Positions 50,122 through 63,666 of a stretch of 64,000 bases of DNA are shown here, in pieces. The stretch is from Bacteroidia bacterium (GTDB lineage Bacteria; Bacteroidota; Ignavibacteria; SZUA-365). The stretch is taken from NCBI GenBank assembly GCA_027493955.1, contig JAOSJT010000001.1, positions 821,131 through 885,130 on the forward strand, given 5' to 3'. Both the position numbers and the translations under genes were made by a program. The notes below the pieces were generated by a model, which saw only the letters and a list, made by a program, of their open reading frames with translations, did no database searches and was not told the origin of the DNA. Position 1 is the stretch's first letter. Every line of letters begins with the position of its first letter.

Positions 50122-50370
50122 GCTGTACCCGCAAACACGTGAATGATTTGTGAAATGAATCTACGGAGCAAAGGACTAAGAGTAAAGTGTCCGATGATTA
50201 CAGTAAGCTCACCCAACATCCAAGTCACACAAAATGGTATATGCGAGGACTAGGCTCAAATGCGCTTCCATTCATCCTTGCACATCTGCTCTTGAATTTC
50301 GGAAACACAGCAACTTTCAGGCGTCGCGTCTTCTCCAACCACCTCAACCGGAAACACGGATCTTTGTGAC

Positions 50371-50530
50371 ACTGATTCTCGCGGATTAAGCGACGCGGAT
50401 TTCCGCGGATTATGGCGGATCAACGCGGATCTAAGATCTAATCCGTGTTAATCCGCCCTTATCAGCGCAGATCCGCGTCACGTGAATCCGCGTCCCCCAA
50501 TCAGCGTGAATCCGTGTCACGAAAATCTGC
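50371..50530. repeat. inverted array of GCGGATT / AATCCGC units
   Basis: The left half consists of GCGGAT(T) units and the right half of AATCCGCG/AATCCGTG units, meeting near CGGATCTAAGATCTAATCCG. More copies of the unit lie at 50690-50715 and 51848-51950, so the units surround the GxxExxY relic and the HTH/PIN pair. Confidence 0.75.
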
Positions 50531-50602
50531 CTTGTGCATAAAGCAGCGCAGTGCCAGATTACAGTTTACTTTTCCAGGTAACCAGCACGACAGGGAGTCA
50601 TC

Positions 50603-50690
50603 ATGCTGATCCATGAAAACATCACCGACAAGATCCTGAGAGCCTTCTGCGCCATGTACAACGGACTGGGCTCGAGCCATAAGGGTAGAT
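50603..50690 (+). pseudogene. relic of a GxxExxY family gene
   Basis: With its own GGGAG ribosome binding site, the frame reads MLIHENITDKILRAF then CAMYNGLGSSH, the typical N-terminus of GxxExxY proteins (LIHEDITxKIIxAFYxVYNxLG). It breaks off where the GxxExxY motif itself should come and runs into AATCCGCG units. Confidence 0.75.
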
Positions 50691-50718
50691 GTGACATAAA
50701 AATCCGCGTAAATCCGCA

Positions 50719-51300
50719 TCAGTACTTTTCGACAAGTCTGCGAAACGCATCAGCAGCTCGGATCAGGGACAGTGATCCGAAGCAATGCAGTAGCGCCTCG
50801 AAGGTCATAGGCGGATTTTTCAGTGCACCTAGCTGCATACCAAGTGCCTTATAGCATAGTAGCGGCTTGTCTGCAATGCATGCAACCAAAAAGGCATCAG
50901 GATGCATAGCCTCGATACCATATTTGCCAAGTTCTTCCTGAGGGAAATCCTGAAGATTGTATGTAACGATAATCTCCGCGTGGCAGTGTTGTGCCAATGC
51001 CACGACGTGGCGATCGTCGGGATCGGGGAGATGAATCGTCGGAATGAGATGCTCAAAACCTCCGACCATACCTTCCAGTACATGCGCATTCATCAGATCA
51101 CGCGTTCGTTCAATTCGTGCGCGTGTGAGGTCCGGACGCTTTTCCTGCAGACTCCGCATCCATTCTTCGTGAATCGTATTCGACCAGCGAGCCCGGAATA
51201 CGTCAAGCAAGGCCAAACGCATCAACAGATCGCGAAGCGGAGCCTGAAAGAGAACGCAGGAATCCAGGACGACACACGATTCTCGAATGTCAGTAGCCAA
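50719..51300 (-). CDS. PIN-domain toxin, VapC-like RNase
   Basis: 193 residues with PIN acidic residues: Asp13 in VVLDSCVLFQ, Glu44/45, Asp92-Asp95 in PDPDDRHVVALA, and Asp117 in TYNLQDFP. PIN toxins are Mg-dependent endoribonucleases acting on tRNA or rRNA. A TTG start at 51300 overlaps the end of the HTH gene (stop 51290) and has CAGGA upstream; the frame is open back to 51411 inside the partner gene. Operon order is HTH first, toxin second. Confidence 0.82.
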   Translation of the reverse strand: MATDIRESCVVLDSCVLFQAPLRDLLMRLALLDVFRARWSNTIHEEWMRSLQEKRPDLTRARIERTRDLMNAHVLEGMVGGFEHLIPTIHLPDPDDRHVVALAQHCHAEIIVTYNLQDFPQEELGKYGIEAMHPDAFLVACIADKPLLCYKALGMQLGALKNPPMTFEALLHCFGSLSLIRAADAFRRLVEKY

Positions 51301-51751
51301 GACCCATGTCCTGAGCTTCGCGCGTGAGTTCGTCGAGTATCCGTGATCGTTCTGTGTCGATCTGCCGCTTGTACTGCGCAACGTCTTCAAAGCGTATCCG
51401 TCTGTGTGCACCGACCTTGCGATATGGAATTTTTGCTTCCGTGAGAAGTTTCACAAGGAATGGCCGCGAAACATTGAGATAATCCGCTGCCTGCTGTGTT
51501 GTCAGTTCAGTCTTAAGCGGCATCAATGCAACATCTTTGCCCTGGGCCATGTGTTCAAGAATCTCAACAAGGAGAGCGTACGCAGCCGCAGGAATGCGAA
51601 TCGCTTCCTTCCCGCCAAGGCTCACCCGATACCCTTCGATCTGCGGTTCCGCAACTGCTTTGGATATTTTCTCGATCGCAGCTCTGGCCATTTCTACATC
51701 ACCCGACTCAGGCGACTGCCCACCGTTGTATGAAACTGTTTCGATACTCAT
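51290..51751 (-). CDS. HTH/excisionase-type antitoxin partner of the PIN protein
   Basis: 153 residues. The C-terminal half holds an excisionase-type (MerR-like) winged HTH: LTTQQAADYLNVSRPFLVKL, then IPYRKVGAHRRIRFEDVAQY. The N-terminal half has a beta-hairpin with EAIRIPAAAYALLVEIL, as in other HTH partners of PIN toxins. AAGGA lies six bases upstream of ATG 51751. A row of three ACGAAA units just upstream may be its operator. Confidence 0.85.
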   Translation of the reverse strand: MSIETVSYNGGQSPESGDVEMARAAIEKISKAVAEPQIEGYRVSLGGKEAIRIPAAAYALLVEILEHMAQGKDVALMPLKTELTTQQAADYLNVSRPFLVKLLTEAKIPYRKVGAHRRIRFEDVAQYKRQIDTERSRILDELTREAQDMGLGY

Positions 51752-51807: not shown

Positions 51808-51847
51808 TAGAAACAATCACAGATGTCCATCCCGATCCTCTCCCAAC

Positions 51848-51950
51848 TCCGCGAAAATCCGTGTCAGTGACACAGATCAACGCGAATCTTCGAGATGAGC
51901 GTTCTTATATCCGCGAAAATCCGTCTTAATCCGCGTCAATCCGTGTCACA
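51848..51950. repeat. AATCCGCG-type repeat cluster, right side
   Basis: Several AATCCGTGTCA, AATCCGTCTTAATCCGCG and TCAATCCGTGTCAC units. The rest of 51951-52293 shows no gene. Confidence 0.65.
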
Positions 51951-52293: not shown

Positions 52294-54099
52294 ATGACAG
52301 CCCAACGCTACACCGTCACGCAATACGGCATCAGCACACTTCTCACCTGGGTTCAGACCGGAGCGATTGCCATTCCCGAGATCCAGCGACCATTCGTGTG
52401 GAGTTCAACAAAGGTCAGGAATTTTCTGGATTCCCTCTATCAGGGCTTCCCGGTCGGCTATCTCATCGCCTGGAAGAATCACGATGTGAAGCTCAAAGAC
52501 GGTTCGTTTTCCGATGGAAAACGCATCCTTATCGACGGACAGCAACGAGTCACGGCTCTCATGGCCGCGTTGCTCGGCTGGGAAGTGATGACCAAGGATT
52601 ACGAACATGTACGCATCCGTATCGCCTTCCATCCGCAGCGTGAAGTGTTCGAGGTGCACAATCCCGCCATTGCCAAGGACGTCACCTGGATTCAGGATGT
52701 TTCCGTGCTGTTCGCCAACGGCGCAGATCTCTTCTCCGTGGTGATGGGCTATTGCGCACAAAATCCCGGGATGGAGCAGAAGGATGTCTTCCAGGTGTTG
52801 TCCCGCCTCGCAGGGATAGTGAACAATCAGGTCGGTGTCATAGATTTGGATGCGGCGCTTGACATCGAGACCGTCACGGAGATTTTTATCCGGGTCAACT
52901 CCGAGGGAGTACCGCTCAGCCAGGCGGATTTCGCCATGTCCAAAATCGCCAGCAACGAGGAGTATGGCGGCAGCGATCTTCGCAAGGCCATCGATTATTT
53001 CTGTCACCTGGCCGTAGCACCGGATTTTTACAAGAAAATCCAGGAAGGGGACAAAAAATTCGCCGACACCGACTACTTCGGGAAAATGTCCTGGCTGCAG
53101 AATGAAAACGACGATATTTACGATCCGTCATACACAGACATGCTGCGTGTGGCCTTCACTTCGGAATTCCGACGCGGCAAACTAGAGGATCTCGTCGCTT
53201 TGCTCTCCGGACGCAATTTCGAGACCAAGCAATACGAGGCGGATATCGCGGAAAAGAGCTTCGCGCTGCTTCGTAAAGGCGTGATGAATTTCATGAATGA
53301 AAACAAATTCAAGCAATTCGTCATGATCGTCACCTCCGCGGGCTTTGTGGACAGCGCGCTGCTCGGTTCGCAGAACGTGCTTAACTTCGGCTATATACTC
53401 TATCTCTCGTTGCGCGATAGTGGGGCAGAGCAAAACCAGATACAGAAATTCGTGCGGCGCTGGTTGGTCATGTCCATGCTCACGGGCAGATACTCGGGTT
53501 CTGCGGAAACGCGCATCGACAACGACATCAAGCAGATTCAGGAACTCGGTTTCGAGCGCTATGCGCAACTCACCTACGACGGTGAGCTCTCCGACGCATA
53601 TTGGGATACAATGCTGCCACAGCAGTTGGTCACCATCTCTACAGCCAGTCCAGCCTTCAACGTGTTTCGCGCTGCACAGGTGTACATGCTCGACAAGGGC
53701 TTTCTCTCGGATGCCGTCACCGTACACAGTCTGCTCACGGTGAAATCCGATCTCCACCATTTCTTCCCGAAGGATTTCCTGAAAAAGAACGGCGCAACGA
53801 AAGGCCGTTACAACCAGGTCGCAAATCTCGTGGTGACGGACACTCCGATCAATCTCTGCATCGGCAGCACGCCGCCAGAGGTGTATATGGCTGCGGAATG
53901 GGAGGCGTGTCTGCAACCCGATGCGAAGAAAAAGCGCTGCGGCCATATCGAGCTTCCCGAGCAACTCATGCAAAATCTCAATTCCCATTGCATCCCGCTG
54001 GACAGCGAACTGTACAGCTACGAGCGCTACGACGACTTCCTAGAAGAGCGTCGAAAGCTCATGGCGGGGAAGATGCGGGAGTACTTCAAAGCACTGTAA
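52294..54099 (+). CDS. DUF262/GmrSD-type nuclease
   Basis: 601 residues. The N-terminal DUF262 domain has [10 protein letters not shown] (28-36) and the ParB/sulfiredoxin-like [11 protein letters not shown] (79-89), which in GmrS/GmrD relatives binds and hydrolyses nucleotide. The C-terminus has an HNH-like core: [11 protein letters not shown] (from 486) and [14 protein letters not shown] (from 507), the nuclease half as in the fused GmrSD enzymes that cut DNA carrying glucosylated hydroxymethylcytosine. Upstream frame extension to 52207 is not coding-like. The downstream UDG-fold gene starts 38 bases later, so an operon is likely. Confidence 0.88.
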
Positions 54100-54136
54100 T
54101 CAACGCTCATAAAAACTCATCCACGTGGAGAAACAC

Positions 54137-54904
54137 ATGCCACAGGCCAGCACCTATCGCTTTCCCTTCGGCCAACCGGTGAAGGATGTCGTTCAAAAGG
54201 ACCGCAGCCCCAAGAAGGTATTCGTCCTCGGAGTGTACGCCAGCGCTGTGCATGCGGAGTGGCGCGATGCGAAGGGCAAAATGCTCGTGCGCGCCCTCGC
54301 AGTGGCCAGCGAGCCGGAGATATTCTGGAGAGGGGACGGTGCGGAGAAAATTATCAGGAAAATCAAATTGCCGGAAGGCGTGGGGACGCTGCAACCGGCT
54401 GCCGAGCAATACAACGGACCATCAGGCAAGGTGCTGGATGCAATGATCTTGAATCCGCTGGGTTTGAAGCGAGAGGATGTGTGGTTATGCGATCTGGTAC
54501 CCCAAAGCCGCATGAATCCCGGCCAAGCGAAAGCAATCGAAACTCATTACAGTAAACTCGTGGAGAAGGGCATCGTTGAACCCGCAAACCTTCCCGAACT
54601 CGAAGACATCGACGACAAACGCCGCGCCGCCATACTCCGCGAGCTGGAGCGCTCCGGAGCCGACACAATCATCCTTCTCGGCGACGTTCCCATAAAACAG
54701 TGGCTGAAGCCTTATGCTCAGGGTTGGAGCACGCTGAGCAATTTTGTGAACAAGCACGGATACGGAAACAGTGTTCCCGTGACAATCAACGGTAAGACCT
54801 ACGAAGTGCTGCCGCTTGTGCATCCGAGGCAGGCGGGGAAGTTGGGGATGAGCAGTTCCGATTGGGCAAAAATCCATAGAAAATGGCTGGGTAATCGGGT
54901 ATAG
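54137..54904 (+). CDS. uracil-DNA-glycosylase-fold protein
   Basis: 255 residues of the UDG superfamily type: motif 1 region VFVLGVYASAVH (28-39), CDLVPQSRMN (118-127), the strand DTIILLGDVPIKQWL (176-190), and the C-terminal HP motif LVHPRQAGKLG (227-237) that corresponds to the HPS loop of glycosylases. Base excision is the family activity; the target base is unknown. ATG 54137 has GGAG six bases before. Placed between a DUF262 nuclease and an HNH nuclease. Confidence 0.75.
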   Translation: MPQASTYRFPFGQPVKDVVQKDRSPKKVFVLGVYASAVHAEWRDAKGKMLVRALAVASEPEIFWRGDGAEKIIRKIKLPEGVGTLQPAAEQYNGPSGKVLDAMILNPLGLKREDVWLCDLVPQSRMNPGQAKAIETHYSKLVEKGIVEPANLPELEDIDDKRRAAILRELERSGADTIILLGDVPIKQWLKPYAQGWSTLSNFVNKHGYGNSVPVTINGKTYEVLPLVHPRQAGKLGMSSSDWAKIHRKWLGNRV

Positions 54905-54980
54905 ATTTTTCGTGGAACGAACTGCATTCAGTGGAATCGAACACCATAGCGAAACTAACGGAAAAAACGAGGTGTGAACG

Positions 54981-55883
54981 ATGTCGGATATGTATGTCGG
55001 TGTGACTGACAATGATTGGTTCAAATTTCTTCGTGACCGTCAGCCTGATGAGGTCAATTTCTGGAAACCGAAGGGTACACCGTTTAAGGCGTTGCAGCCA
55101 GGTGGATTGTTCTTTTTCAAACTGCATGCACCGCTGCGAAAAATTGCCGGTTACGGAATCTTTGTCGAAGCCCCAATACTCCCCCTGAAACTAGCCTGGG
55201 ATGCTTTTGGCGAGAAAAATGGTGTCTCCAGTCTGAATGACCTGCAGAGACGAATAGCGCGATACAGAAGAGACCACGACCCGAATCCCTACATCACATG
55301 CATAATGCTCGCGCAGCCGGTGTTCAGACCGGATGAGGGATGGATGCAACAGCCCTCTGCTTGGGGCGACAGCATTGTGTCGGGAAAGGGATACGAAGCA
55401 GATTCTTCAGATGGTAAACGCATGTACAAATTCGCTGAGGAGCTACTCAGTGTTGTGGACAATGGAATTGTAGCCGACAACCGTCAGCGCTATCAGCATC
55501 GGTTACAGAAGGTACGATATGGGCAGGGCACTTTCCGTATTCTCGTTACCGAGTCCTACCAGCGTCGCTGTGCGATCACCGGGGAACGAACGTTGCCGGT
55601 TCTCGAAGCAGCACATATCAAACCATACGCTCTTGACGGACAACATAATGTGCAGAACGGACTCTTGCTTCGCTCGGATGTGCATACCCTTTTTGATGAC
55701 GGGTACATTACAGTTACAACGGATCATCGTGTCGAAGTGAGCAGACGGATAAAAGAGCAGTACGAGAATGGCAGGGATTATTACAAGCATCATGGAAACA
55801 AGCTGATAGTACTGCCATCAGTCGAGGAGCAACCGGATAGAGACTTACTGTTGTGGCATAATGAGCACGTCTACCAGGGTTGA
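54981..55883 (+). CDS. HNH endonuclease, predicted restriction enzyme
   Basis: 300 residues. The N-terminal domain (YVGVTDNDWFKFLRD, PGGLFFFKLHAPLRKIAGYG) looks like a PUA/EVE-type module that could read modified bases. The C-terminus is an HNH nuclease: Cys197 in CAITGERTLP, the AAHIKPYA motif with His212, Asn226 in NGLLLRSDVH and His235. It resembles COG3440 predicted restriction endonucleases. It follows the UDG-like gene by 76 bases on the same strand. Confidence 0.87.
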   Translation: MSDMYVGVTDNDWFKFLRDRQPDEVNFWKPKGTPFKALQPGGLFFFKLHAPLRKIAGYGIFVEAPILPLKLAWDAFGEKNGVSSLNDLQRRIARYRRDHDPNPYITCIMLAQPVFRPDEGWMQQPSAWGDSIVSGKGYEADSSDGKRMYKFAEELLSVVDNGIVADNRQRYQHRLQKVRYGQGTFRILVTESYQRRCAITGERTLPVLEAAHIKPYALDGQHNVQNGLLLRSDVHTLFDDGYITVTTDHRVEVSRRIKEQYENGRDYYKHHGNKLIVLPSVEEQPDRDLLLWHNEHVYQG

Positions 55884-55902
55884 GTTAACAATAAATCTGA
55901 AA

Positions 55903-56256
55903 ATGAGCGTCAAGCAAGCCGACGGCAACATCCGCGTCAAGGTCAACGGTGTAGACGTTTTCGATCCCGGCACCGGCGAAGTCCGCAGCGACAACGCCGA
56001 CGGCATCGCTTGCTGGTTCATCGATACCGACTACAACGGTGAGAGCTTCTACGTCCGCCACGCCTACTTCCTCGGCCAGAACGATCCCTACAAAGCCCTC
56101 AAGACCACCCTCCGCGCCGAAATCAACCCCGACGCCTGGGACACCCTGCACAGCGACACCTCCCGACCCTTCCCCATCCCCGCCTCCCGCCGCATCGCCG
56201 TCAAGGTGATCAACCATCTCGGCGATGAGGTGATGAAGGTATGGAAGGTGGGGTGA
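55903..56256 (+). pseudogene. C-terminal relic of an adenine-specific DNA methyltransferase
   Basis: About 117 residues that match the last part of site-specific (type III-like) DNA methyltransferases: DGIACWFIDTDYNGESFYVR, DPYKALKTTLRAEI and a final INHLGDEVMKVWKV. The catalytic motifs (DPPY, SAM binding) are absent, and the frame begins inside the HNH gene end. It is GC-richer than its neighbours. Either a stand-alone domain or, more likely, the remains of a restriction-modification operon. Confidence 0.7.
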
Positions 56257-56351: not shown

Positions 56352-57143
56352 ATGGGCGATTTTTGGGAAATGTTAACAGAAATGGAGCGGAACCCTGACT
56401 TATCAGATTTTCAGACCGACATGGAAAGAGCCGAATATTTGCAACGGTTGCTAATCAATCAATCAACGAATGACGGCCCAGCAAATAATGATCACTATGT
56501 CCAACTGCGAAAATATTTTCTTGAAAAGCCTGAACATAGAGTTTTAGTGCCCACATGGGTCAGAACAAATCGCGATCTAAGCCAATTCTGGCAGTTTATT
56601 AAATTCAAGTTTAGCACCTATGCTGAAAGACGTGAGTTCGTTTGGAGTGAATTTTCGCCATTACTTGAAGCGATTGAGTCATCTACCGATGTGCCGCACG
56701 AAATTGCGTTCACTGAAGCACTCAAGGAATTCAATTCCGAGCAACTAATCGATTTATGGAATAAGAACATGGATCGGAAAAATACTGATCCAGACGGGGC
56801 CATCACAGCGGCAAAGAGCCTCCTGGAATCAGTATTCAAACATATTCTAGATGATCTCGCCATAGATTATAGCAGTAATTCAGATCTGCACGATCTGTAT
56901 AAAAAGGTTGCAGAAAACCTTAATTTATCAGCATCACAGCATGAGGAACATATTTTCAAACAAATTCTTGGGTCATGCAGTGGTGTCGTATCGGGAATGA
57001 GCAGATTAAGGAATGCCATGGGTGATGCTCATGGGCAAGGGAGAAAAAACTATAGAGCTACACCGAGACATGCCCAACTGGCAGTGAATCTCGCGGGTAG
57101 CGTCGCTTTGTTCGTACTCGAGACATACAAGGATCGTAAATAA
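56352..57143 (+). CDS. abortive-infection family protein (Abi_C)
   Basis: 263 residues. The C-terminal ~120 residues have the Abi_C pattern: DPDGAITAAKSLLESVFKHI (147-166) and SRLRNAMGDAHGQG (217-230) followed by PRHAQLAVNLAG. The R-x6-H in RNAMGDAH (Arg220, His227) resembles the HEPN RNase motif. The N-terminal part is helical and unknown. Base composition is AT-richer than the core genes. AGGA precedes the start. The next gene begins four to sixteen bases later, so the two are coupled. Confidence 0.85.
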   Translation: MGDFWEMLTEMERNPDLSDFQTDMERAEYLQRLLINQSTNDGPANNDHYVQLRKYFLEKPEHRVLVPTWVRTNRDLSQFWQFIKFKFSTYAERREFVWSEFSPLLEAIESSTDVPHEIAFTEALKEFNSEQLIDLWNKNMDRKNTDPDGAITAAKSLLESVFKHILDDLAIDYSSNSDLHDLYKKVAENLNLSASQHEEHIFKQILGSCSGVVSGMSRLRNAMGDAHGQGRKNYRATPRHAQLAVNLAGSVALFVLETYKDRK

Positions 57144-57159
57144 AATATTGGAGCACGGT

Positions 57160-57816
57160 ATGGTATCATTTGGAAGGCAAGCTGAAGCACTTAAGAGAAA
57201 AGAAGCGTTGCTATTCCAGAGATGGGGTGGTGAACGCCCTACCGACGGCCTTGTTTCACCAGAGTATTATGTTCGTTCGAAACCACGAGTCGTGTTCCTG
57301 ATGAAGGAGACTAACGGTAAAGTAGATCTTACAGATTTTCTCAGAAATGGTGGCCGATGGCAGACATGGAACAACGTCGTACGTTGGAGTAGACTCCTAC
57401 GCAATGGATTTGCAGTTCCTTTGAGGAAAATTACTGATGAGGACCGCCGTAACGAATTGCTTCACTTAGCCATAGTAAATATCAAGAAGACTCCCGGAGG
57501 CGCACGTGCTTCAAAGTCGGAGCTTAGGCACGCAGTAATGCATGATTATGGGTTGCTACGGGATCAGTTAGAACTGTATCAACCAGATGTGATCGTGTGC
57601 TGCGGCCAGGATGTGACAGATCTGTTGCCCGAGATCATAGATGTCAGACCTGCCAATGATGCTCAAAAGATACTGCACCTCTCTTGGAGCGACACATCGT
57701 CTAAGGGTGTAGCCATACCCTTTTATCACCCTGCATGCAGACGCAATAAGGTAGCGCTGCTTAACGAATTAAAGCATCTTGTCGAAACGAACAAGTTGAT
57801 CAAACTCTGGAGATGA
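57160..57816 (+). CDS. second UDG-fold protein
   Basis: 218 residues. FLMKETNG (46-53), AIVNIKKTPGG (104-114), DVIVCCGQDV (143-152) and FYHPACR (188-194) follow the order of UDG-superfamily motifs, including the His-Pro near the C-terminus. The catalytic role cannot be judged; similar proteins are often listed as hypothetical. GGAG lies six bases before ATG 57160. It directly follows the Abi_C gene, so it is probably the second half of a two-gene defence unit. Confidence 0.65.
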   Translation: MVSFGRQAEALKRKEALLFQRWGGERPTDGLVSPEYYVRSKPRVVFLMKETNGKVDLTDFLRNGGRWQTWNNVVRWSRLLRNGFAVPLRKITDEDRRNELLHLAIVNIKKTPGGARASKSELRHAVMHDYGLLRDQLELYQPDVIVCCGQDVTDLLPEIIDVRPANDAQKILHLSWSDTSSKGVAIPFYHPACRRNKVALLNELKHLVETNKLIKLWR

Positions 57817-58246: not shown

Positions 58247-58277
58247 TTGACAGCAGTTTACCTTTAGGTTAACTTTG
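58247..58277 (+). promoter_or_regulatory. promoter and operator of the HigBA pair
   Basis: TTGACA at 58247, 17 bases, TAACTTTG at 58270, again fitting both a -35/-10 pair and TAnnTTTG. TTTACC-TTTA-GGTTAA between the elements is a near-palindrome and a likely operator for the XRE antitoxin. Confidence 0.7.
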
Positions 58278-58286
58278 GAGTGGACG

Positions 58287-58655
58287 ATGAGGACACGGAA
58301 AATCTGGACCGGAGAACAAGCGGACATCAACGCTATCACGGATGCCGACGGTCATTGCCCTGTTCTGGATTTTCTCAATCGACTTGATGCGCGTGCTCAG
58401 AAGAGGTTACTCATGCTTTTCGACCTCTTCGGCAAGTGCGGACGCAGCAGGAACTCGGAGATGTTCGAAGAGATCGGCGTCGGTATCTGGGCTATCAAGA
58501 ATGCCGCGTTTCGCATCTTCTGTTTCTTCACGCCACACGCAGCAAAAACGACATTGGTCCTCACCCACGCAATCGATGGCAAAGACAACACATCAGACAG
58601 CAACGAAGTACTGAAGGCCGAACAATATCTCAGGCGCTTCATCAGGAAAGGTTAG
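58287..58655 (+). CDS. HigB-like toxin (RelE/ParE, Gp49 family)
   Basis: 122 residues. CPVLDFLNRLDARAQKRLLML, then NSEMFEEIGVGIWAIKNAAFRIF and FTPHAAKTTLVLTHAI are the Gp49/HigB pattern: ribosome-dependent mRNA cleavage in characterised HigB. ATG 58287 has GGAG six bases upstream. Toxin precedes antitoxin, as in higBA operons. Confidence 0.88.
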   Translation: MRTRKIWTGEQADINAITDADGHCPVLDFLNRLDARAQKRLLMLFDLFGKCGRSRNSEMFEEIGVGIWAIKNAAFRIFCFFTPHAAKTTLVLTHAIDGKDNTSDSNEVLKAEQYLRRFIRKG

Positions 58656-58659
58656 AGCA

Positions 58660-59040
58660 ATGCAGCAGAGCAATTGGTTTGCGCAGCAATTCGCGAAATT
58701 TGAGAAGGATCCCGAGTTCCATGCAGGAGTGCTCCGACTGAGTTTCTACGAAGACGTGCTACGCATCATGGAAGAAAAGGGCATCAACAGAAGCGAACTT
58801 GCGGCGCGACTCGGCTGCAGCAAGGCCTACATCACCAAGCTCTTCAGCGACTCCACCAACGTAACCATACAGACCATGGCAAAAATATCCTTTGCGCTTG
58901 ATTGCGAATTGAGCATCACCATGAACTCAAAGGAGAAAAAATCCGGGTGTACCACAAACGCACAATCGGGCAGATCTACAGAACGAAGTAATAGAGCCAG
59001 AAAAGGACGAAGACAATACTTAGATGTGAGGGCGTGGTGA
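58660..59040 (+). CDS. HigA-like XRE-family antitoxin
   Basis: 126 residues with an XRE HTH: VLRIMEEKGINRSELAARLG, then CSKAYITKLFSDSTNVTIQT. The basic, low-complexity tail (RSTERSNRARKGRRQY) is unlike typical HigA and may come from a frame extension at the 3' end. Starts four bases after the toxin stop. Confidence 0.87.
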   Translation: MQQSNWFAQQFAKFEKDPEFHAGVLRLSFYEDVLRIMEEKGINRSELAARLGCSKAYITKLFSDSTNVTIQTMAKISFALDCELSITMNSKEKKSGCTTNAQSGRSTERSNRARKGRRQYLDVRAW

Positions 59041-62769: not shown

Positions 62770-63666
62770 CATCTCATCCGTCGCGGTTATGATCGCGGCT
62801 ATACAACCTTCGACGAGGATACGCAGGCACTGCGCGGCCGTCTGCTCTCGACTGAAACCATGCGCCGCAATCTCCTGCGCTCGGCGCGCGTGCGCTGCTC
62901 CCGCGACGAACTGAGTCACGACATTCTGCACAACCGCATACTCAAGACCACGGTGGTGCAGCTTTTACGGACGTACGGTATCGATGAGAGCATAGCCGCG
63001 AATCTTGTCGATCACCGACATCGCATGCACACCGTGAGTGAAATTCCTCTGTCCGACAGCGTGTTTTCGCGTGTGGTCTTGCACAGAAACAACCTCTTCT
63101 ATGATTTCCTGCTCAAAATCTCGCAATTGATCTTCCATAACCTGCTCCCGGCGGAAGAGCAGGGGCATTACTATTTCCTGGATTTTATCAACGATCAGGT
63201 AAAGATGCGGCTGCTCTTTGAGGAATTCATCCGCAATTTCTACCGTCTCGAACAAAACGACTGGAAGGTGGATCGTGATACCAATGATTGGCAGCTCGAC
63301 GCAGTGACGGAGGATTCCGCCCGCTTTCTGCCCGCAATGCAGACGGACGTGTCCCTCGTGAATCGTCACCGCCGCATCGTCATAGAATGCAAATTCACAG
63401 CCAGCCATTTCCAGCAGCGCTTTGCGCAGTCCAAGGAGACCTTCCGTTCATCGCATATGTATCAGCTCAACGCATATCTTCAGAATCTGCACGACCGTTA
63501 CCCGGAGCAGGAAATCGAAGGAATTCTTCTTTATCCTACCGTGCGCGAATCCCTCCGCCACGAATTCCTGAACAAGCGCGGCCAGCGCGTACGGATATGG
63601 TCGATAGATCTGAATGCTCCGTGGAGGCAGATACATGAGGAGCTGCTGGGGTTGGTTGCACGATGA
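62770..63666 (+). pseudogene. N-terminally truncated McrC
   Basis: From RRGYDRGYTTFDED and ALRGRLL onward this is McrC of the McrBC modified-DNA restriction system, with the PD-(D/E)xK nuclease core (MQTDVSLVNRHRRIVIECKF). The first ~100 residues of a normal McrC are missing, no start codon fits the point where similarity begins (62770), and mcrB is absent. An ATG at 62860 could still yield 268 residues that keep the nuclease half. The break lies ~95 bases after the FISUMP gene. Confidence 0.8.

Follow-up and report, generated by a model that had tools for sequence, protein, structure and literature searches.

A candidate stand-alone glycosylase of the UDG superfamily from a mosaic defence island in partial decay

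Base excision has recently emerged as a strategy of phage defence, with Brig1 reported in 2024 (PMC11078745) and Brig3 in a 2026 preprint (PMC13160076), both from soil-library genes. Both proteins have a UDG-type fold and can lie in defence islands, and in both an acidic residue is required: E147 of Brig1, which is needed for defence and was placed at N82 of the S. tokodaii UDG (PMC11078745), and D127 of Brig3, which is essential for 5hmC excision and lies 27 residues after the stacking residue W100 (PMC13160076). In the family 4 enzyme UDGa of T. thermophilus, three residues have described roles: N80 binds uracil at N3 and O4, H155 stabilises the base as it leaves, and N89 has been proposed to place the water (PMC5387724). 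An exchange of Asn for Asp in human UNG (N204D) yields an enzyme that excises cytosine (PMC11289083). Two further groups linked to modified DNA are relevant here, namely the DUF262-containing GmrSD and BrxU type IV restriction enzymes, of which GmrSD enzymes cut glucosylated-hydroxymethylcytosine DNA, and modification-dependent EVE-HNH endonucleases such as VcaM4I.

Here, we analysed a window (the whole stretch of 64,000 nucleotides) from a host genome that consists of one contig of 5.24 Mb. Three genes, designated A, B and C, follow each other on the same strand (Table 1). Their Pfam assignments are all far above chance (A: GmrSD_N, PF03235, 2.6e-27; B: UDG, PF03167, 8.5e-7; C: HNH_2, PF13391, 2.5e-14). 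A previous sequence-only reading had described the genes with gaps of 38 and 76 bases; the open reading frames, their positions, the strand and the gap of 76 bases between B and C were confirmed, and the gap between A and B was corrected to 37 bases. Antisense ORF clusters opposite B were rejected as codon mirrors rather than genes.

Table 1. Coordinates of features in the window and at related loci elsewhere.
Feature	Sequence	Position	Strand	Length	Description
Repeat cluster	window	50359-50721			short repeats, AATCCGCGTCAATCCGTGTCA and its reverse complement
PIN/HTH pair	window	50719-51751	-		HTH_17 protein, then RSP_2648-like PIN protein; probable toxin-antitoxin pair
Repeat cluster	window	51846-51950			same short repeats
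Gene A	window	52294-54099	+	601 aa	fused protein of GmrSD type, with an N-terminal DUF262 domain (DGQQR) and, towards the C-terminus, an H-H...N-N region like GmrD HNH
Gene B	window	54137-54904 (ATG at 54137)	+	255 aa	UDG-superfamily protein, invariant D119
Gene C	window	54981-55883	+	300 aa	probable PUA/EVE-like N-domain and HNH nuclease, VcaM4I-like
D	window	55861-56256	+	about 112 aa	C-terminal remnant of type III Mod methyltransferase
E	window	56352-57143	+		Abi_C / AbiJ-like (PF14355, 3.7e-22; PADLOC AbiJ, 4.2e-24)
F	window	57148-57816	+		second, different UDG-fold protein (PF03167, 4.6e-4, under the curated cut-off)
HigB/HigA-type toxin-antitoxin pair	window	58275-59040	+		PF05973 (1.8e-7) and HTH_3/HTH_26
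McrC, N-terminally truncated	window	62860-63666	+		PF10117, 1.4e-20, profile positions 105-318 of 318
B paralogue	host contig C1	1125338-1126105			46%
F-family copy near B	L015	7199-7855
F-family copy near B	L052	4717-5439
UDG-like gene before B	L020	1052-1666
Small HNH gene	L018	3469-4071
Type III RM locus with B nearby	L282	4899-5951, 5964-6764
Type III RM locus with B nearby	L116	1832-6758
Prophage copies of B	L151-L156	8001-8760 of each
Truncated McrC with following HNH endonuclease gene (see McrC above)	L290	2575-3471

The third-position GC content of the genes differs widely (A 0.70, B 0.66, C 0.53, D 0.85, E 0.41, F 0.46) and therefore points to a mosaic locus. Fragment D matches only the final eighth of type III Mod methyltransferase profiles, namely positions 872-983 of 983 in PADLOC MTase_III (1.1e-59) and 630-742 of 743 in PHROG 67 (DNA methyltransferase). 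Since the same sequence terminates long Mod ORFs in two other genomes (G121 and G301; loci L116 and L283), we regard D as a C-terminal remnant of a type III Mod, and for this reason it was ruled out as a gene of a system. No McrB gene was found upstream of or beside the truncated McrC. A second HNH endonuclease gene starts about 0.4 kb beyond the window end, after the truncated McrC, and on the other side, just before gene A, clusters of short repeats flank the PIN/HTH pair. Overall, these features describe a defence island of mosaic make-up that has partly decayed.

Gene A had been read as DUF262/GmrSD-like, which agrees with the match to PF03235 and with a DGQQR motif that is invariant in an alignment of 16 A sequences. 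Its best solved relative is the DUF262 protein of PDB entry 7p9k (2.2e-7), which we take to be BrxU. The C-terminal region (DLHHFFP ... NQVANL) is conserved as well and resembles published HNH motifs of GmrD (PMC4619093), and relatives of A often lie beside type I restriction genes at the loci read by eye. A thus shares with GmrSD and BrxU the DUF262 domain with DGQQR and the frequent proximity to RM genes, and has a C-terminal H-H...N-N region that resembles theirs, but only its N-domain passes Pfam, with no Pfam match to DUF1524 (PF07510), and among catalogued systems it comes closest to the candidate HEC-05, which provides the best PADLOC models (1.3e-32). Taken together, A looks like a self-contained GmrSD/BrxU-like fusion with putative activity.

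A comparable picture was obtained for gene C. Its HNH domain is homologous to that of VcaM4I (PDB 6yex; 8.6e-10 as a single sequence, 2e-15 as a profile), while its N-domain differs in having no sequence match, including to EVE. For this domain only, we used a structure model built from six sequences, which is of low confidence (pLDDT 52.8): nearly all listed fold matches of residues 1-168 in this model are EVE, ASCH or YTH folds with Z-scores of 6-8, and the comparison of this low-confidence model with VcaM4I gave Z 7.0. Of the earlier description of C, the HNH nuclease is hence well founded, and the PUA/EVE-like N-terminus is probable based on these fold matches. C, too, looks self-contained, as an enzyme of the PUA/EVE-HNH type built like VcaM4I, in which a reader domain is likely.

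The sequence-only reading had combined the three genes into one system that senses a modified base, excises it and cuts the DNA, and had tied this proposal to conserved linkage of the genes in other genomes. The search for B covered a phylum sample of 295 other genomes, all GTDB species contigs, phages, plasmids, IMG/VR and the genome's own family. A and C were sought in the same phylum sample, and we inspected the flanks of 15 loci with A and 12 with C. Relatives of A or C were beside B at none of approximately 45 B loci (phylum, family, all-GTDB contigs, plasmids and prophages), and the other two genes adjoined full-length relatives of A or C at 0/15 and 0/12 loci, respectively. Conserved A-B-C linkage was thereby ruled out at the level of the phylum and of the family as well as across all GTDB contigs. 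Regarding co-occurrence of full-length relatives in the phylum sample, neither A nor C was present in any of the eight genomes with B, but with only 0.4 and 0.3 genomes expected it is adjacency rather than co-occurrence that carries the argument.

In a joint system, A or C would sense the modified base, B would remove it and the nucleases would cut the DNA at the abasic site or close to it. Such a division of labour fits the shared strand, the short gaps and the plausibility of modified DNA as a substrate for each of the three families. However, the absence of adjacency, the weaker signal from co-occurrence, the nuclease domains that A and C each appear to have of their own, and the third-position GC of C (0.53 against 0.70 and 0.66 in A and B) make it very improbable, and the proposed system is not supported. 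Full-length relatives of A and C do occur together in three genomes of the phylum (G167, G172 and G239; 0.6 expected, P ~0.02), where they lie on different contigs. Locus L018, from an Ignavibacteria bin, also has a small HNH gene at B, sharing 4 bases with the start of the B frame, but this HNH gene is a different one from C.

In our estimate, the odds are slightly better than even that the locus is instead a mosaic defence island in which three independent single-gene effectors directed at modified DNA lie side by side, with B as a stand-alone enzyme of the UDG superfamily. Each of A, B and C is a plausible solo effector of this kind, and B would need no partner from the locus. The locus also illustrates that genes can lie side by side in a defence island without forming a system.

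The assignment of B to the UDG fold, already made in the sequence-only reading, holds at the level of sequence and structure. With 29.6 bits, the match to PF03167 exceeds the cut-off of 24.3 and places B in the UDG superfamily, and the AF2 model (pLDDT 92.6, pTM 0.88) has its nearest solved fold in the family 4 UDG 4zbx (Z 13.6 over 164 residues, rmsd 3.1). UdgX follows with Z ~12, and TDG/MUG, with Z ~9, score well below both. PDB sequence searches with B alone and as a profile returned no relative, the fold searches brought up no Brig3 entry, and no description of the B family was found in the literature, where absence from open-access papers counts for little. In the alignment of 30 relatives from many phyla, the mean column identity is 46% and over 50 columns are invariant, among them the blocks LGVYASAVHA, AVASEPEIFW, NGPSG, WLCD and HPRQ. 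B apparently represents an undescribed clade of the UDG superfamily with almost invariant motifs. As a side observation, residues 34-202 of PDB 9qhs chain A (phiLo family-A DNA polymerase) match the B model with Z 10.4; this phage polymerase apparently carries a fused UDG-like domain.

Compared with family 4 UDGs (S. tokodaii 4ZBY, T. thermophilus UDGa), B shares the fold, the His of motif 2 (H229), the Asn of motif 3 (N127, offset by one) and the position of the stacking residue 27 before the base-reading residue. It differs in that the base-reading Asn is Asp in all B members, in motif 1 (GVYASAVH instead of GEAPGxxE), in an extra conserved segment (AVASEPEIFWRG) and in the absence of the four Fe-S cysteines, C118 being the single Cys of the protein. 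The replacement of Asn by Asp and the missing Fe-S cysteines rule out that B is an ordinary family 4 UDG; the host genome has a canonical family 4 UDG of its own.

The residue correspondence is based on an hhalign comparison of the B profile with 31 family 4 UDGs, which reached a probability of only 50% (E 1.6e-4) and in which the blocks agree. In this alignment, Y92 of B falls on the stacking Phe and D119 on the uracil-reading Asn, a position occupied by Asn in 27/28 family 4 sequences. D119, N93 and H39 are conserved in 48/48 B members, N127 in 47/48 and H229 in 47/47, with N127 being one residue nearer than its family 4 counterpart. Judged from these alignments, B keeps the positions that match the catalytic His and Asn of family 4 and changes the predicted base-reading residue.

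An acidic residue at the base-reading position links B with the Brig proteins by position. D119 aligns with the Asn that has been equated with E147 of Brig1 (PMC11078745). Since 27 residues also separate Y92 and D119, D119 may correspond to D127 of Brig3, an equivalence drawn from the spacing behind the stacking residue and not from an alignment. Based on the register of motif 1, H39 probably sits where E47 of the T. thermophilus enzyme, Y66 of UNG and E55 of Brig3 face C5 of the base; in the same register, N50-P51-S52 of Brig3 would correspond to Y34-A35-S36 and E55 to H39. As for B, the nearest solved structure is a family 4 UDG for Brig1, reported as 4ZBY. Bacteroidota, in which B is common, are not among the five phyla from which the Brig1 family has been reported.

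In motif 1, B lacks both the Glu that is typical of family 4 and the Asp/Asn found in other families, and it could therefore be non-catalytic or follow a quite different chemistry. B might accordingly be a binder of bases or nucleotides with a UDG fold, for example a sensor, rather than a glycosylase. The absence of the family 4 Fe-S cysteines would suit a binder too, but almost all members retain H229 and N127, whose positions are proposed to be catalytic in family 4, and the surroundings of the pocket are strongly invariant, which renders a purely binding role improbable.

The best reading of these residues is that B may be a glycosylase that works on its own and removes a modified base, probably one derived from cytosine. 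In such a mechanism, B would flip the base into its pocket, where D119 would read the Watson-Crick edge at the position at which uracil glycosylases use Asn, favouring a cytosine-type edge. H39 would face the C5 side and recognise the C5 group, H229 would stabilise the leaving base and N127 would position the water. The resulting abasic site would then block replication or become a target for the ordinary AP endonucleases of the host. Since excision of plain cytosine would harm the host, we expect the substrate to be a modified cytosine.

Next, we considered where B occurs. In the phylum sample, B is present in 8/295 other genomes, corresponding to 6/140 genera, and is thus patchily distributed; across the GTDB species contigs it was found at 39 loci. 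No B was detected in the phage search. The plasmid search revealed B on four Variovorax megaplasmids, and IMG/VR contained it on six Bacteroides-type prophage contigs. In the latter (L151-L156), the B relatives occupy one conserved place among phage genes and look like prophage cargo; in several of them, UmuD/UmuC genes lie within a few kb of B. Well-supported groups in the B tree mix phyla, for instance Thiothrix with Chlorobiaceae and Lentisphaerae, which would fit horizontal movement, though bins can be contaminated.

The genes next to B vary between loci, and no constant partner was identified: F occurs at three loci and RM genes at several. Type I or type III RM genes or DISARM/BREX-like genes are beside B at a minority of loci, and housekeeping genes such as SbcCD and GuaA adjoin it at several other chromosomal loci. 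A type III RM locus is close to B in two other genomes (L282 and L116); at L282, B directly precedes an apparent fusion of a Res N-terminus with a Mod C-terminus, a degraded system reminiscent of the Mod remnant that follows B and C in the window. Among the intact genes around B in the window, F alone is seen again near B relatives, within 3 kb at L015 (genome G011) and L052. The F family is present in 5/292 genomes. With P = 0.1 for its presence by genome together with B, we treat the F-B pairing as a lead and not as a proven pair. At locus L020, yet another UDG-like gene precedes B.

These genomic contexts bear on whether B serves defence at all. Alternatively, B could be a horizontally travelling glycosylase that serves DNA repair by removing a deaminated or an oxidised base, in line with the UmuDC genes near the prophage copies, the housekeeping neighbours of several chromosomal copies and the second B paralogue of the host, which likewise has a housekeeping context near GuaA. 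A repair role sits less well with the patchy distribution among genera, with a host that already owns a canonical family 4 UDG and with the RM and DISARM-like genes that recur near B, and the change from Asn to Asp argues against uracil as the substrate. We therefore consider repair rather unlikely, yet clearly less so than a mere binding function.

A more far-reaching reading, to which we assign a probability of roughly 40%, is that B founds a widespread and so far undescribed class of the UDG superfamily: a natural glycosylase for a cytosine-type modified base that would protect against phages as a single gene, carried by chromosomes, prophages and megaplasmids in many phyla. The fold, the conservation, the replacement of Asn by Asp, the solitary and patchy distribution and the carriage on prophages and a megaplasmid are observed, and from them we infer catalysis by B, its modified-cytosine substrate and its anti-phage function. 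If this is true, the proposal comes with a clear and cheap substrate test, and B could possibly serve as a tool for modified cytosine. The pocket of B would then be a natural version of the change engineered in UNG N204D. If B is indeed a base-excision defence enzyme, this strategy would be far more widespread than known, Bacteroides prophages included.
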